A stretch of DNA of 64,000 bases. Source: Methanobrevibacter sp. Lineage in GTDB: Archaea > Methanobacteriota > Methanobacteria > Methanobacteriales > Methanobacteriaceae. The stretch is taken from positions 62,001-126,000 of the forward strand of contig NZ_JAFQXT010000027.1 in NCBI RefSeq assembly GCF_017406825.1, written 5' to 3'. Position 1 is the stretch's first letter. Each line of letters starts with the position of its first letter. The notes beneath the pieces were generated by a model. The model was given only the letters and a program-made list of their open reading frames with translations. It ran no database searches and was not told where the DNA came from. A program made the position numbers and the translations under genes. Shown piece after piece: positions 3,873-51,878 of this stretch.

Positions 3873-4718
3873 ATGTCAAATTCAGTTTTCGTACCAGGCC
3901 ACATTACTGGCTTTTTTACAATTGAAAACCATGAAGTTTCCCTAAAAAACGGATCTTGTGGTGCAGGCTTTCTGCTTTCCAGGGGAGTAAAGACTACAAT
4001 TTCAGAATCGGACGGATTGGAAATTGATATCAATCAAGGAAAAGAAAGCGTTATCAGGCAAGTTTTGGAGATTTTAGAGATAAAACCTGATTTTAAGATT
4101 ACCCAGGATATCCAGTTGCCGATTGGCGCTGGCTTTGGAACTTCAGCTGCTTCAGCATTAAGTCTGGCATTGGCCATAAACGAATTTTTGGATTTGGGTT
4201 ATTCAGCTGACTTGTGCGGACAGATTGCCCATATGGCCGAGGTCAATTTGGGAGGAGGTTTGGGTGACGTCATTGCTCAAACAGGCCACGGTATGGTTTT
4301 AAGAACCCAACCCGGTGCTCCGGGTGTTGGTGAAATCAAATCATTTGAGCATGATGTCAGCATCGCCTGGAAAACTTTTGGAGGCATTAATACCACAAGC
4401 ATCATTCAGGACCCTCATCACAGGCAGGTCATTTCAGATGCGGGTTTGAAATACTTGGAGTATTTTGAGGAAAAGCCCAGCCTAAGAAATTTCCTGGACT
4501 TTTCAAGGAGGTTTTCAACTGAGACAGGATTGATGTCTGCGGAAGTTAAGGAGCTTGTCGATTATTTCAATTCTCTGGATGATGTTTTGGGCAGTTCAAT
4601 GGCAATGCTTGGAAATACCGTTTTCGCATTCTCATTTAATGAAGATGTCTTCAGAACCCTTGAAATTGATGGATTGCATATGGATAAACTTAACAATGTT
4701 GGGATTTCTTATGATTAG
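3873..4718 (+). CDS. pok: Pantoate kinase (GHMP kinase fold)
   Basis: 281 residues matching the archaeal pantoate kinase family, which phosphorylates pantoate to 4-phosphopantoate as the first archaea-specific step to coenzyme A. The N-terminal VFVPGHITGFF is the family opening motif, and PIGAGFGTSAAS (near residue 89) is the GHMP ATP-binding loop. LGGGLGDVIAQTGHG is the following conserved segment. A ketopantoate-reductase-like gene lies at 20772-21725, so another enzyme of the same pathway may be present in the window. The 3' end overlaps the next gene by 8 bases. Confidence 0.88.
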   Translation: MSNSVFVPGHITGFFTIENHEVSLKNGSCGAGFLLSRGVKTTISESDGLEIDINQGKESVIRQVLEILEIKPDFKITQDIQLPIGAGFGTSAASALSLALAINEFLDLGYSADLCGQIAHMAEVNLGGGLGDVIAQTGHGMVLRTQPGAPGVGEIKSFEHDVSIAWKTFGGINTTSIIQDPHHRQVISDAGLKYLEYFEEKPSLRNFLDFSRRFSTETGLMSAEVKELVDYFNSLDDVLGSSMAMLGNTVFAFSFNEDVFRTLEIDGLHMDKLNNVGISYD

Positions 4719-5226
4719 GTTAAGTTATGATGTTAAAAGATATCGCCGGGATATCCTGGATTTGATTAAACCGGATGATACGGTCATTGAACTTGGATGC
4801 CATACAGGCGGAACAACAAGGCTGCTTCCCCAAACCTGCAACGTCATAGCCCTTGACAATTCGCCGGAGGCCGGTGATGAAATGAAAAAGCTGCCTCATG
4901 TGAACTTCATCAATGCTGATGTGAGATTGCATGATGTTTTAACTGAAGTCTACAGCATCACACAATCATGTAATCTGCTTATCATAGATTTGGGTGGAGG
5001 ATACCATCCTGACACTGTTTTTAAAGTATTTTATATCTGGTCCTCAACATTCAAACCGGAACACACAGTAATCAGAAACAGGGGTTTGCTGGAGTTTTTC
5101 AACTCGGCAAAAGGAAGCGGTGAGGATTATATTTCTGATAAAGGCTATCTTGAATCTTATTACGATTCAGGCATTCCACCCCAAATTAAGGAATTTGACC
5201 TGTGGACCTCTGCTTTGAAAAAATGA
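4711..5226 (+). CDS. Class I SAM-dependent methyltransferase-like protein
   Basis: 171 residues starting at ATG 4711, inside the last codons of pantoate kinase. A longer open frame reaches back to 4555 but would lie entirely within pok and is unlikely. The motif VIELGCHTGGTTRLL near residue 24 is the glycine-rich SAM-binding loop, VIALDNSP is motif II with the acidic ribose-binding residue, and LLIIDLGGGY near residue 90 is motif IV. The substrate is unknown; the tight coupling to pok is positional only. Confidence 0.65.
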   Translation: MIRLSYDVKRYRRDILDLIKPDDTVIELGCHTGGTTRLLPQTCNVIALDNSPEAGDEMKKLPHVNFINADVRLHDVLTEVYSITQSCNLLIIDLGGGYHPDTVFKVFYIWSSTFKPEHTVIRNRGLLEFFNSAKGSGEDYISDKGYLESYYDSGIPPQIKEFDLWTSALKK

Positions 5227-5289
5227 TATGTCAAATTTTAGAATATAATTATATATTAATTTTAATATATTATTAAATAGGTAATAAGG

Positions 5290-5703
5290 ATGACAGAAAA
5301 TAAACAAAATAACTACAATGACTTCATAAAGAACAATAAAATCCTCAAATCTAATGTAAACGGTTTATACAGGTTTTTAGTCTTATGGATTATCAAATAT
5401 CAAGGCAGTATACATGGCTATGGAATCATGAAGGAATTGGACAAGTTTTTCCAAAATCTAATAGAGGAGGGGGTTTTGAAAAAATCCAATCCAAGTAAGA
5501 TTTATCCTATTCTAAAACAGATGGAAGAATATGAACTGATTTCTGGTGAGGAAGTCATTCCGGACGATAAGAAGGTCACATTCTATAAAATCACCGATAA
5601 AGGATTGTATTTCATACAGTATATTTTCAAAAAATTCATGCTTCACAGTGAAAATTCCCAATGGAAACTGATCTATGAAGATATGATGGAAGCTGAAGAC
5701 TGA
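5290..5703 (+). CDS. PadR family transcriptional regulator
   Basis: 137 residues with the PadR winged helix: LWIIKYQGSIHGYGIMKEL is the recognition-helix region (the HGY.I pattern is typical), KIYPILKQMEEYELIS is the wing-preceding helix, and TFYKITDKG is the wing. PadR proteins are dimeric repressors that respond to small ligands. No obvious target is adjacent: the upstream gene is a methyltransferase-like protein and the next operon begins 220 bases downstream. It may be autoregulated from its AT-rich promoter at about 5245-5280. Confidence 0.85.
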   Translation: MTENKQNNYNDFIKNNKILKSNVNGLYRFLVLWIIKYQGSIHGYGIMKELDKFFQNLIEEGVLKKSNPSKIYPILKQMEEYELISGEEVIPDDKKVTFYKITDKGLYFIQYIFKKFMLHSENSQWKLIYEDMMEAED

Positions 5704-5730
5704 AAATCAAATATTGATTTTCTTTATTTT
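5702..5730 (+). terminator. Terminator of PadR gene
   Basis: GAAAATCAA (5702-5710) pairs perfectly with TTGATTTTC (5714-5722) around ATA, followed by TTTATTTT. The TGA stop (5701-5703) overlaps the first arm. Confidence 0.7.
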
Positions 5731-5926
5731 CAATTAGATATAATCTATTATAATTCATAATAGTTTAAATTCTTAATTTAATTTTTTTTATTATTTTGTT
5801 CAATTTATACAATAATTTTTTAATTAAATTTTTAATTAATATTAAACGCTTATCTATTTTTGTATAACTAATATTATATAGGTAAAAGGAGATAAATATA
5901 ATTCATAACTAATCGAGGTTAAAAAA

Positions 5927-6718
5927 ATGATAGGTAAAAAAATCCGTTTAGAAAGAATCATAAACAGAAATACTAAAAGAACAGTAATTGCACCAATGGA
6001 CCATGGTGTTTCAAGCGGTCCGATTCCAGGAATTATCGATATGGATGAAACAGTTGAAAGCATTGTTCAAGGAGGAGCAGACGCAATACTGATGCACAAA
6101 GGAATAGTGCAACAAGGTCACCGTGGTTACGGAGAGGATATAGGTCTAATCGTACACTTATCAGCAAGTACATCCCTTGCCCCTGATCCAAATGATAAGG
6201 TAACCGTAACAAGCGTTGAAAAGGCAATCCAATTGGGTGCGGATGCAGTTTCAATACATGTAAACCTTGGTTCAGACACAGAAAGCCAAATGTTGCAGGA
6301 ATTGGGTGAAATTGCCGAAACCTGTGATTACTGGGGAATGCCGCTTCTTGCAATGATGTACCCAAGAGGCCAAAAAGTCGAAAACGAACATGATGTTGAG
6401 TTTGTAAAACATGCAGCACGTGTGGGATCAGAACTTGGTGTGGATATCGTCAAAACCAACTACACAGGAGATCCGGATTCATTCAGGGAAGTTGTCGAAG
6501 GAGCAATTGTTCCTGTAGTTATTGCAGGCGGTCCGAAAATAGACACTGATGAGGAACTCTTGCAGATGGTTAAGGATTCCCTTGAAGTTGGAGGTGCAGG
6601 CGTTGCATTTGGACGTAACCTGTTCCAGGCTGAAAACCCTGGAAAAATCACCCGTGCAATTTCTGAAATCGTTCATCATGACGCTGAAGTCGATGAAGCT
6701 TTAAAATTCTTAGACTAA
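5927..6718 (+). CDS. 2-amino-3,7-dideoxy-D-threo-hept-6-ulosonate synthase
   Basis: 263 residues of the archaeal class I aldolase family (DeoC/LacD-like TIM barrel) that condenses 6-deoxy-5-ketofructose 1-phosphate with L-aspartate semialdehyde, the first step of the archaeal route to dehydroquinate. [13 protein letters not shown] near residue 25 and the Schiff-base lysine context DIVKTNYTG near residue 178 are recognisable, and VVIAGGPK and [13 protein letters not shown] form the phosphate-binding end. First gene of a rightward run; the next gene, dehydroquinate synthase II, is the next enzyme of the pathway 9 bases downstream. The 220-base upstream gap is AT-rich and holds the promoter. Confidence 0.93.
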
Positions 6719-48812: not shown

Positions 48813-49703
48813 ATGACTATTGAAACACCAAAATCCAGTGAAATCAAAAGATTAACCACTCCCTTAAAATTTAAAGATTCCAAAGCCTACGACAGCAGTG
48901 GGAATCTTATCAAGTATAGCGAAACCCTATCTGATGTTAGACTGATTGTCGAACCGAAGGAAAATGTCCTGTCAGATGAGGAGATATTGCAGTTCGCCCC
49001 ACTGTCGAAGGCCGCTTCAAGGGTCAGACTCAAACGTGGGTTTGGAAACGTTCAGGATATTTTATACATTCATGAGCCAATTCCATGGATTATAGGATTA
49101 TATTATGTAATCTTAATATGCATAGCCATACCGGTCTTCTATGCGAATATGACAACACTGATGTATGTTTTGTTAATCTTATCAATCGTTCCTTTAGTTT
49201 ATTTATATCACATTTTCAGATTAAACACATATCAGCAGGTTGATAAAGATAATAATGTTGATATACATCAAACACAAAATAAAATAGATGCAAAACATAG
49301 TAATGGAGTCGAGTCCCTTAAGGTATATGAAAAGGATATAAATAACTTAAAGGTGCTGTTTGATGTTAAACAGGAGGTTGCCCGTGAACTAATAAAAAAA
49401 CGATTTGAGCCTCCACAAATTACTTATGATAAATTCATCGCCACAATAGACAAATCAGAAGAATTGTTCAATAAACAGGCTGAAGCTGCATCAAACATTG
49501 TTAACTTGGCTGCTGAAGACACTCCAAGAATTCAAAATGAACTGAAAAGCAAGATAGATGCCATGAAAACTATCATAAATCAGATAGAGGATTTGATAAA
49601 TGAACTGGTGATAAACATCAGTGCATCTGAACAGTCAAGCGAAGACGTTAAAACGTTGTTGGAGGATATGGAAAACTTAACAACATCCGTTAAAGATTAT
49701 TAG
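48813..49703 (+). CDS. XpaC-like membrane coiled-coil protein
   Basis: 296 residues. Two membrane segments (WIIGLYYVILICIAIPVFY and LMYVLLILSIVPLVYLY, about residues 90-130) separate an N-terminal basic region from a long cytosolic helical part (YEKDINNLKVLFDVKQEV, TYDKFIATIDKSEELF, QIEDLINELVINI). The layout and its position before a TelA gene match the bacterial XpaC-YaaN gene pair. Function of XpaC is not settled. First gene of a four-gene rightward run; its promoter TATA-like TATAATATATATC lies near 48,771-48,783. Confidence 0.5.
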   Translation: MTIETPKSSEIKRLTTPLKFKDSKAYDSSGNLIKYSETLSDVRLIVEPKENVLSDEEILQFAPLSKAASRVRLKRGFGNVQDILYIHEPIPWIIGLYYVILICIAIPVFYANMTTLMYVLLILSIVPLVYLYHIFRLNTYQQVDKDNNVDIHQTQNKIDAKHSNGVESLKVYEKDINNLKVLFDVKQEVARELIKKRFEPPQITYDKFIATIDKSEELFNKQAEAASNIVNLAAEDTPRIQNELKSKIDAMKTIINQIEDLINELVINISASEQSSEDVKTLLEDMENLTTSVKDY

Positions 49704-49711
49704 GTGATATA

Positions 49712-50287
49712 ATGACAAAAAATTGTCCTAAATGCGGAAAAGAATTGCCCGACAATGCTAAATTTTGCATGGACTGCGGATACAGTTTTGATAATACAAA
49801 GAGTGTAGGCTCAAGTATATTTTCAAATGGATCCATATTCATAATTCTGATTGCAGCAATACTTGTCATTGGAGGAATATTCATATTAACCACAAGCATG
49901 GGAGGAAATGACTCACCGGATGATGTGGTTGATGATGTGGAACATGTTGATTTGACAATCACTGATGTAGGTGGCTGGGACAGTGACAGCGGCAAGGAAA
50001 GTTATACATTATATACTTCAGCCATATTCAATGGCATTCCGGATGATTCAAAAGGATATAATATAAAAACAACATATTTTGACAGTAAAGGTAATGAAAT
50101 TGGTCATGAGACAGAAACTTTAGAAAGCGTATATTATGAAACTAATTACGATATCAGTTTCGGATTTTATACAACATATAAGTTGCCTGACCCTGACCAT
50201 GTGACAGTTGACGTTATAAAAAATGGAAAAGTAATTGATTCTTATACAGAAACTATAAATAAAAACAAGATTGATTTTTTAAATTAA
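49712..50287 (+). CDS. Zinc-ribbon membrane protein with extracellular domain
   Basis: 191 residues. An N-terminal zinc ribbon, CPKCGKELPDNAKFCMDCG, is cytoplasmic. A single membrane segment follows (IFIILIAAILVIGGIFIL), then a beta-rich domain beginning VDLTITDVGGWDSDSG. AGGTGAT (49704-49710) is the ribosome binding site. Lies between the XpaC-like gene and TelA, tightly spaced (9 bases on each side), so the three probably form one complex or response. Function unknown. Confidence 0.75.
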   Translation: MTKNCPKCGKELPDNAKFCMDCGYSFDNTKSVGSSIFSNGSIFIILIAAILVIGGIFILTTSMGGNDSPDDVVDDVEHVDLTITDVGGWDSDSGKESYTLYTSAIFNGIPDDSKGYNIKTTYFDSKGNEIGHETETLESVYYETNYDISFGFYTTYKLPDPDHVTVDVIKNGKVIDSYTETINKNKIDFLN

Positions 50288-50296
50288 GGTGATATT

Positions 50297-51436
50297 ATGG
50301 CAGAATTCTCATTAGATGTAGACGGCATTAAAGAAGACGTAGAAAATTCATTAAATGAAGAAAAAACCAAATTGGAAAATTCAAATCTCAAAAACCAGGC
50401 AGATGATAATGCTGTAGCAATATTTGATGCGGATTTGGATAATCCTCAGGAAAGAGAAAGCATTTTAAAACCGTTGGATAACTTCGGTTTGAATGAAATG
50501 TCAAAATCAGCATCCCATAATGAAATGTTGTCAACAAGATTCGTTGATTTAACAAAAGGCGGAAAAGATGCAGATAATATAGGCGAACAGCTAATCGAAC
50601 TGAACAAACAGATGAAAGACCTCGACCCAAGTAAAGTCGATTTTGCAAAAAAGGGAGTCATCGGAAACTTCATGAATCCAATCAGAAAATACTTTGCGAA
50701 ATATGAAAAGGCTGAAGTTGCCATCTCTGACATTGTACAATCTCTTGAAAAAAGCAGTAAAGTATTGCAGAATGACAATACCACACTTTTGAATGAAGAG
50801 AACTATCTTAGAGAAGTGACCAATAAGCTACTTGCCGACATTGAACTTGGTAAACAGATGGATGCATCCATCGAAGCGCAAATACAGACTGCTGAAATCG
50901 AAGGTGTTGACCAGAACAAAATAGATTTCGTGCGTGAAGAGGTCCTATTCCCGTTAAGGCAAAGAATCATGGACATGCAGCAGATGATTGTTGTAAACCA
51001 GCAAGGAATCGTTTCACTTAATGTTATAAGACGCAACAACAAGGAACTGATTCGTGGTGTAAACCGTGCTAAAAACGTAACCGTATCCGCTTTAAGAACA
51101 GGGGTCATGGTTGCAAGTGCATTATATGATCAGAAAATCGTCATGGAAAAAATCAACGTTTTAAACCAGACAACTGAAAACATCATAGAATCCACATCCC
51201 ACATGCTTAAGGAACAGGGCAGTGAAATCCAAAAGCACAGTGCGGAGACTATGATTTCACCTGATGTATTGAAAGCGTCATTTGCCGAAGCTCTCCAAGC
51301 CATTGAGGATGTAAGCACATATAAAGTTCAGGCATTGCCTCAGATGAAGGAAACAATTGACATGTTCAGTGAAATGGCCCAGGACGGTCAGAAGGTTGTT
51401 GAAAAGATTGAAACAAACAATAATTTAATTGAATAA
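50297..51436 (+). CDS. TelA/KlaA-like toxic anion resistance family protein
   Basis: 379 residues, almost wholly alpha-helical with long coiled-coil stretches, and no signal or membrane segment. The core has the TelA pattern: LDPSKVDFAKKGVIGNFMNP, IVQSLEKSSKVLQNDNTTL, then REEVLFPLRQRIMDMQQMIVVNQQG and NNKELIRGVNRAKNVTVSALRTGVMVASAL. Bacterial TelA proteins are linked to tellurite, antibiotic or envelope stress. Starts with AAGGTGAT 5-10 bases upstream. Follows the zinc-ribbon gene in an operon with the XpaC-like gene. Confidence 0.82.
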   Translation: MAEFSLDVDGIKEDVENSLNEEKTKLENSNLKNQADDNAVAIFDADLDNPQERESILKPLDNFGLNEMSKSASHNEMLSTRFVDLTKGGKDADNIGEQLIELNKQMKDLDPSKVDFAKKGVIGNFMNPIRKYFAKYEKAEVAISDIVQSLEKSSKVLQNDNTTLLNEENYLREVTNKLLADIELGKQMDASIEAQIQTAEIEGVDQNKIDFVREEVLFPLRQRIMDMQQMIVVNQQGIVSLNVIRRNNKELIRGVNRAKNVTVSALRTGVMVASALYDQKIVMEKINVLNQTTENIIESTSHMLKEQGSEIQKHSAETMISPDVLKASFAEALQAIEDVSTYKVQALPQMKETIDMFSEMAQDGQKVVEKIETNNNLIE

Positions 51437-51437
51437 T

Positions 51438-51878
51438 ATGAATGTATTTGAAAAATTAATAAGATTATGGTGGGTAATCCTCTCATTTATAAGTTTCTTC
51501 AATGGGTTAGGGTTTATTTATATCGGTTCCAAACACAGCAACAGGAATTGGACTATTGAAGGAATTGCATACGAGACACCATGGTTTTTTTATTTAATTT
51601 ATAGTATAATCTTTGGATTTGATATTTTTAAGTTTAATCAAACAGATTATGTTCTTATAATTGCATTGCTGTTGCAGCTGATTTGTATAGTAAGGTCCTT
51701 TTGGGTTGCAATCAAACTCTGGGATGTATATGACAATAATGATAAATATGCCCACAATCCTGTTGAGTTAATAAATCCATTCAAAAGCAAAGAAAATAAT
51801 GGTCCTTCAATTCATTCTGTATGCTGCTTATGCATTGCAGTAATATTTTTCATATTTGCAATTATTGCTATTCCTTAG
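51438..51878 (+). CDS. Multi-span membrane protein, unknown function
   Basis: 146 residues from ATG 51438, just after the TelA stop. Four hydrophobic segments (IRLWWVILSFISFFNGLGFIYIG, FFYLIYSIIFGF, YVLIIALLLQLICIVRSFWVAI, VCCLCIAVIFFIFAIIAIP). No family recognised. The position suggests it belongs to the TelA operon, perhaps as its membrane partner. Confidence 0.6.
   Translation: MNVFEKLIRLWWVILSFISFFNGLGFIYIGSKHSNRNWTIEGIAYETPWFFYLIYSIIFGFDIFKFNQTDYVLIIALLLQLICIVRSFWVAIKLWDVYDNNDKYAHNPVELINPFKSKENNGPSIHSVCCLCIAVIFFIFAIIAIP

Follow-up and report, generated by a model that had tools for sequence, protein, structure and literature searches.

A telA operon of Methanobrevibacter and a helical domain that accompanies TelA in Methanobacteriales

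TelA and its described partners

TelA proteins are widespread and, to our knowledge, no mechanism has been established for them. A known gene arrangement is the xpaC-yaaN pair of Bacillus and Listeria, in which a gene for a membrane-helical protein is followed on the same strand by telA. In B. subtilis, xpaC-yaaN belongs to the core sigma-W regulon of envelope stress (PMC3498285). In Listeria, a bacteriocin raises lmo1966-1967 (XpaC/TelA), and cells become more sensitive to nisin and tellurite when lmo1967 is disrupted, both as reported in PMC12791056, while Lactococcus orf53-telABC is associated with tellurite tolerance (PMC13109727). The TelA family (PF05816) has other genetic contexts, such as proteobacterial plasmids where telA lies near genes for VWA proteins. 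Jumbo phages of Staphylococcus and Lak megaphages of Prevotella also have distant TelA relatives.

Here we describe a telA operon found at positions 48813 to 51878 of a 64,000-nucleotide stretch of Methanobrevibacter sp. DNA (the window), which is part of a 1.7 Mb assembly in 54 contigs.

Organization of the operon and its gene products

Four ORFs named A, B, telA and D follow each other on the forward strand, as listed in the first-pass annotation. Intergenic gaps are 8, 9 and 1 base for A/B, B/telA and telA/D, respectively; the last two had been given correctly, whereas 9 bases had been counted for the first. A GGTGAT motif resembling a ribosome site precedes both B and telA. The A+T-rich segment 48760-48812 (+), with the TATA-like sequence ACTATAATATATATC some 30-43 nt ahead of the first ATG, was read directly as a candidate archaeal promoter and leader; a sigma-70-type promoter scan is uninformative for archaeal DNA.

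Gene A (48813-49703) codes for a 296-long protein composed of a small N-terminal domain (residues 1-86), a transmembrane hairpin (residues ~89-135) also supported by hydropathy, a low-confidence linker (residues 144-165) and a carboxyl-terminal domain (residues 167-296, positions 49311-49700). The AlphaFold2 model of the protein, of moderate confidence (pLDDT 74), gives this last domain three long helices and a short fourth one (residues 167-197, 203-232, 238-271 and 276-295), and the domain is also supported by alignments and by the genome survey presented below. The domain has about 125 amino acids with the conserved motifs F.PPQ.TY..F, NEL.I and DSVK.Y, and it is the part of gene A product common to all TelA-linked relatives. 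The complete protein matches no curated Pfam or NCBIfam family above cut-off, its model no solved fold at E<=0.001 in Foldseek, and a scan of viral contigs with the domain gave no confirmed match. The domain is previously undescribed and absent from Pfam and NCBIfam; no earlier description was found in the open-licence literature searched. Sub-threshold Pfam matches of A and D (LXG, COMMD1, HA-17 and others, E 0.01-0.5) were dismissed as noise because they lie below the cut-offs and differ between members. Searches of solved structures with the sequences of A, B and TelA gave nothing useful except for the zinc ribbon.

This zinc ribbon (C5, C8, C19, C22; PF13240, E=4.4e-9, 36.3 bits for a cut-off of 25) occupies the amino terminus of the 191-long product of gene B (49712-50287). 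Its four cysteines are conserved and it is followed by a single transmembrane segment (residues 42-60) and by a domain of about 130 residues predicted to lie outside the cell, in agreement with the first annotation of B as a zinc-ribbon membrane protein. Neither Pfam nor the PDB has a match to the outer domain, which was seen only in B-type proteins in the fusion survey. TcaA-type proteins likewise have an N-terminal zinc ribbon, one transmembrane segment and a C-terminal domain outside, but the similarity of B to the TcaA model is restricted to the zinc ribbon (14.8 bits for a cut-off of 550).

The third gene (50297-51436) encodes a full member of the TelA family, 379 residues long, with a match to PF05816 (E=4.2e-68, 230 bits for a cut-off of 30) that covers profile positions 17-329 of 332 and settles its identity. 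The protein is soluble, without transmembrane segments by hydropathy, and all-helical. Its model, likewise of moderate confidence (pLDDT 71), is dominated by helices 128-202, 206-317 and 322-373 (75, 112 and 52 residues) and matches no solved structure at E<=0.001 in Foldseek. The best hits, to ClyA-type long helical bundles (E 0.015, TM-score ~0.3, rmsd ~17-22 Å), were rejected as generic.

Gene D (51438-51878) codes for a 146-long membrane protein with three to four transmembrane segments by hydropathy, consistent with the four spans assigned initially, and without a curated family above cut-off. Its start is most likely ATG 51438 and not TTG 51429, given that 21 relatives are conserved from the former onwards (MN..EK). 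The aligned relatives share the motif NG(L/F)GF.Y.G.K...NW..EG..YE.PW. A nearly invariant CC.C at the last membrane span (51813-51875), which is unusual for a membrane protein of this small size, may be where a metal or a lipid is attached.

The name of the family and the link of Lactococcus orf53-telABC to tellurite tolerance (PMC13109727) evoke a literal tellurite or toxic-anion resistance operon. This is very improbable considering that none of the four genes codes for a recognisable reductase, efflux pump or methyltransferase and that the phenotypes in bacteria include envelope stress.

Relationship between gene A product and XpaC

The first-pass annotation had taken A for an XpaC-like protein within an xpaC-yaaN type pair enlarged by two new components. 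The position and layout of this comparison hold: the gene immediately before telA codes for a membrane-anchored helical protein, as xpaC does in Bacilli, both proteins have a transmembrane hairpin followed by a helical bundle (in Bacilli XpaC by reading of the sequences), and the TelA partners are homologous. Homology to XpaC found no support. PF10112 (XpaC) matches neither A nor any of 60 archaeal A relatives scanned, and gives nothing over cut-off in 152 genomes of the phylum. Profile-profile comparison (hhalign) of the A domain with 14 Bacilli XpaC proteins encoded beside telA, taken from genomes obtained through a Bacillus HPr query, yields probabilities of 0.4% (60 domain sequences) and 0.7% (108 sequences) with E ~0.1; controls were reversed and shuffled, and column-shuffled ones reach similar values. 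HMM searches between the A domain and Bacilli XpaC were negative in both directions. A protein of the same origin, fold, partner and function as XpaC whose sequence similarity was lost would explain the identical place directly upstream of telA and the shared layout, and the best hhalign path does align the same helices (XpaC F..HLDS.VEL.EKY with F..Q.DSALNII.LA). Such a diverged XpaC appears nonetheless rather unlikely, since the hhalign score is within the range of the shuffled controls, the HMM and PF10112 searches are negative, and an archaeal-led TelA profile still detects Bacilli TelA at 1e-29 across the same evolutionary distance. At most, A may work like XpaC, in a relationship that sequence does not demonstrate. 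Archaeal A also differs from XpaC by its extra N-terminal domain and by the nature of its carboxyl-terminal domain, a multi-copy modular family. The operon does add B and D to the pair as new components in this lineage, but zinc ribbons and D-type modules are also found in one protein with the domain of A in other genera.

Conservation of the A-B-telA-D unit

TelA was found in 84 of 150 genomes of the window's order and the genes were called around 80 TelA loci; gene calls are mechanical and the genomes are in part incomplete. The order A-B-telA-D is present in 38 Methanobacteriaceae loci among the 80 regions, with A-B gaps mostly of ~8 nt and B-telA gaps mostly of ~9 nt. The flanks of the unit vary: dtd is found upstream, downstream (L036, L039, L044, L046, L056, L058) or not at all, and two loci of another genus (L035, L038) have the four genes in identical order without dtd. 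Four constant genes within changing flanks indicate that the unit is maintained by selection and not by local synteny alone. The neighbourhood survey proposed in the first-pass annotation thus uncovered a conserved operon-like arrangement in Methanobacteriaceae.

Conservation is not uniform among the four genes. Several genera have no B, and neither do four TelA loci within the same genus (L054, L062, L074, L087) that also have no A beside telA. B, suggested as a possible sensor in the first-pass annotation, is therefore not a core component; many TelA loci lack it, and this counts against its being the essential sensor. In those four loci, as in a second-strain copy (L034), the domain of A is encoded elsewhere in the genome. 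This copy belongs to a slightly different second telA locus of the window's assembly, found twice (contigs C24 and C42; L002, L003, L034) with copies scoring alike. Its order is dtd-B-telA-hydrolase, without A and D, and it apparently comes from another strain or species admixed with this assembly (contamination 4.58%).

The helical domain accompanies TelA

A survey of the 150 genomes with the carboxyl-terminal domain of A alone found it in 92 of them: 83 of the 84 genomes with TelA against 9 of the 66 without (Fisher p 1.6e-30, a value inflated by shared ancestry). The only TelA-positive genome without the domain (G136) has no telA but a broken one, while among the nine TelA-negative genomes with the domain two have only fragments and seven an intact copy. 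The split is repeated within the genus of the window (55/55 against 2/11, p 1.5e-9, also inflated by shared ancestry) and within a second genus (8/8 against 1/6 among the genomes listed). TelA is nearly always single whereas copies of the domain number from one to seven per genome. The Methanosphaera plasmid pNP174 carries a telA cluster with the domain. On a 136-kb contig (IMG/VR 3300006045_000004, 4449-6011; L120), a gene for a protein with transmembrane segments and the domain is followed by telA 9 bases away. The plasmid cluster and this minimal pair suggest that domain and telA stay together when mobile.

In other genera the domain is found on different protein architectures. It is combined with a zinc ribbon alone (L085, L267), with a zinc ribbon and two D-type modules (L093 and plasmid pNP174), with two D-type modules (L270, L272, L273) or with a single one (L271, L279). 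Gene D thus encodes as a free-standing protein a module that in other genera forms the N-terminal part of proteins with the domain of A, and such Rosetta-stone fusions with zinc ribbons and D-type modules support that A, B and D act together. The window's genome has a second domain protein with a zinc ribbon, transmembrane repeats and the domain (L265, 6368-7438). Its gene is part of a cluster on contig C51 (L265, 3018-9853), where it is flanked by the gene of an XPD-like helicase on one side and that of an AAA ATPase with a zinc ribbon (AAA_lid_6) on the other. SseB-like genes are close by, and clusters resembling this one are found at L266 and L274.

The domain could also be a generic coiled-coil oligomerisation module without any special tie to TelA, its presence in operons and fusions being due to hitch-hiking. 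Foldseek, which finds only generic three-helix bundles for the A model, and the presence of the domain in some TelA-negative genomes fit with this explanation. We consider it unlikely because the motif-rich conservation of the domain is atypical of a generic coil, because the domain follows TelA inside single genera, and because defence enzymes bear it mostly in telA clusters while BrxL found elsewhere has no such domain.

Association with defence enzymes

Six genomes, from three genera, have large enzymes with the domain as their carboxyl terminus. These are helicase-nucleases of the UvrD-PDDEXK (G066, G091, G147) and Hhe/AAA_12-MTES_1575 (G092, G098) types and, in a single genome at 68% completeness (G148), BrxL. 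In G066, G098, G147 and G148, four of these six genomes, the fusion sits inside a telA cluster. The cluster of G148, brxA-brxB-brxC-pglX-pglX'-pglZ-brxL::domain-telA, is a complete BREX system with telA as its last gene. BrxL serves as a control: among the 21 of 150 genomes that code for it, only one has the domain on BrxL, and its brxL gene immediately precedes telA. This BrxL frame has 1214 aa whereas the other complete BrxL frames have 478-699 aa and are domain-free. TelA is not mentioned in a survey of BREX systems (PMC12839542).

The G148 BREX cluster (L287, contig C1, 5117-12211) also has a recombinase-like gene, a full-length PglX gene and a truncated second one on the opposite strand, an arrangement that suggests phase variation by inversion. 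In G147, a 1998-aa frame (L290, 1-3746, minus strand, running into L065 on contig C202) lies beside the gene of a STAND-type ATPase. It combines a caspase-like amino terminus recognized by eye (SGHG motif), a UvrD helicase and a PDDEXK nuclease, and it contains the domain three times.

TelA and the domain might then serve mainly in antiviral defence, the operon of the window being a simplified form. The complete BREX cluster of G148, the Hhe-type and UvrD-PDDEXK fusions within the telA clusters of G066, G098 and G147, and the helicase and AAA ATPase genes that adjoin the second domain gene of the window's genome all point in this direction. It is quite unlikely, though, as a primary role: the operon of the window and of the main clade has no defence enzyme, PADLOC identifies no known defence protein among the four window proteins, the window has no BREX genes, and bacterial TelA is tied to envelope stress.

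Proposed function and implications

We incline slightly to the interpretation of this locus as an archaeal TelA operon in which A is a membrane partner with a domain that docks onto or assembles together with TelA, forming an envelope-stress unit akin to XpaC-TelA. This interpretation is based on the conserved gene order with short gaps, the co-occurrence of domain and TelA, the fusions, the mobile pairs, the BrxL control and the stress data from bacteria. It is weakened by the seven TelA-negative genomes with an intact domain, by the five TelA loci that have no A beside telA, by the shared ancestry behind part of the co-occurrence, and by the moderate confidence of structure models that resemble no solved fold. 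TelA would be a soluble, elongated helical scaffold in the cytoplasm, according to its predicted fold and to the role attributed to its bacterial relatives. The transmembrane hairpin of A probably holds the carboxyl-terminal domain in the cytoplasm, where it would contact TelA, so that A, along with D and B, would tie TelA to the membrane. The latter two, B with its zinc ribbon inside, one transmembrane segment and a domain outside, and D with its four spans, may belong to the same membrane assembly. The unit would act most likely in envelope stress like XpaC-TelA of Firmicutes, a function carried over from distant bacterial TelA. The docking domain would be a reusable module that relatives put on other membrane anchors, zinc ribbons, helicase-nucleases and BrxL. 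The best reading of the domain is that it links membrane or enzyme modules, which vary, to TelA through a presumed binding. A bolder and tentative extension, to which we give less than even credit, is that the domain is a portable TelA-docking tag by which clients (membrane anchors, zinc ribbons, BrxL, helicase-nucleases) are brought to a TelA scaffold at the membrane.

Throughout an archaeal family, TelA is thus tracked by one small domain carried by very different proteins. Should this domain bind TelA, the proteins fused to it would name the clients of TelA, whose function would become testable, and the defence enzymes among them would be a first hint of TelA in antiviral systems. Were the domain a portable tag, TelA would be a general assembly platform that joins envelope stress and defence.
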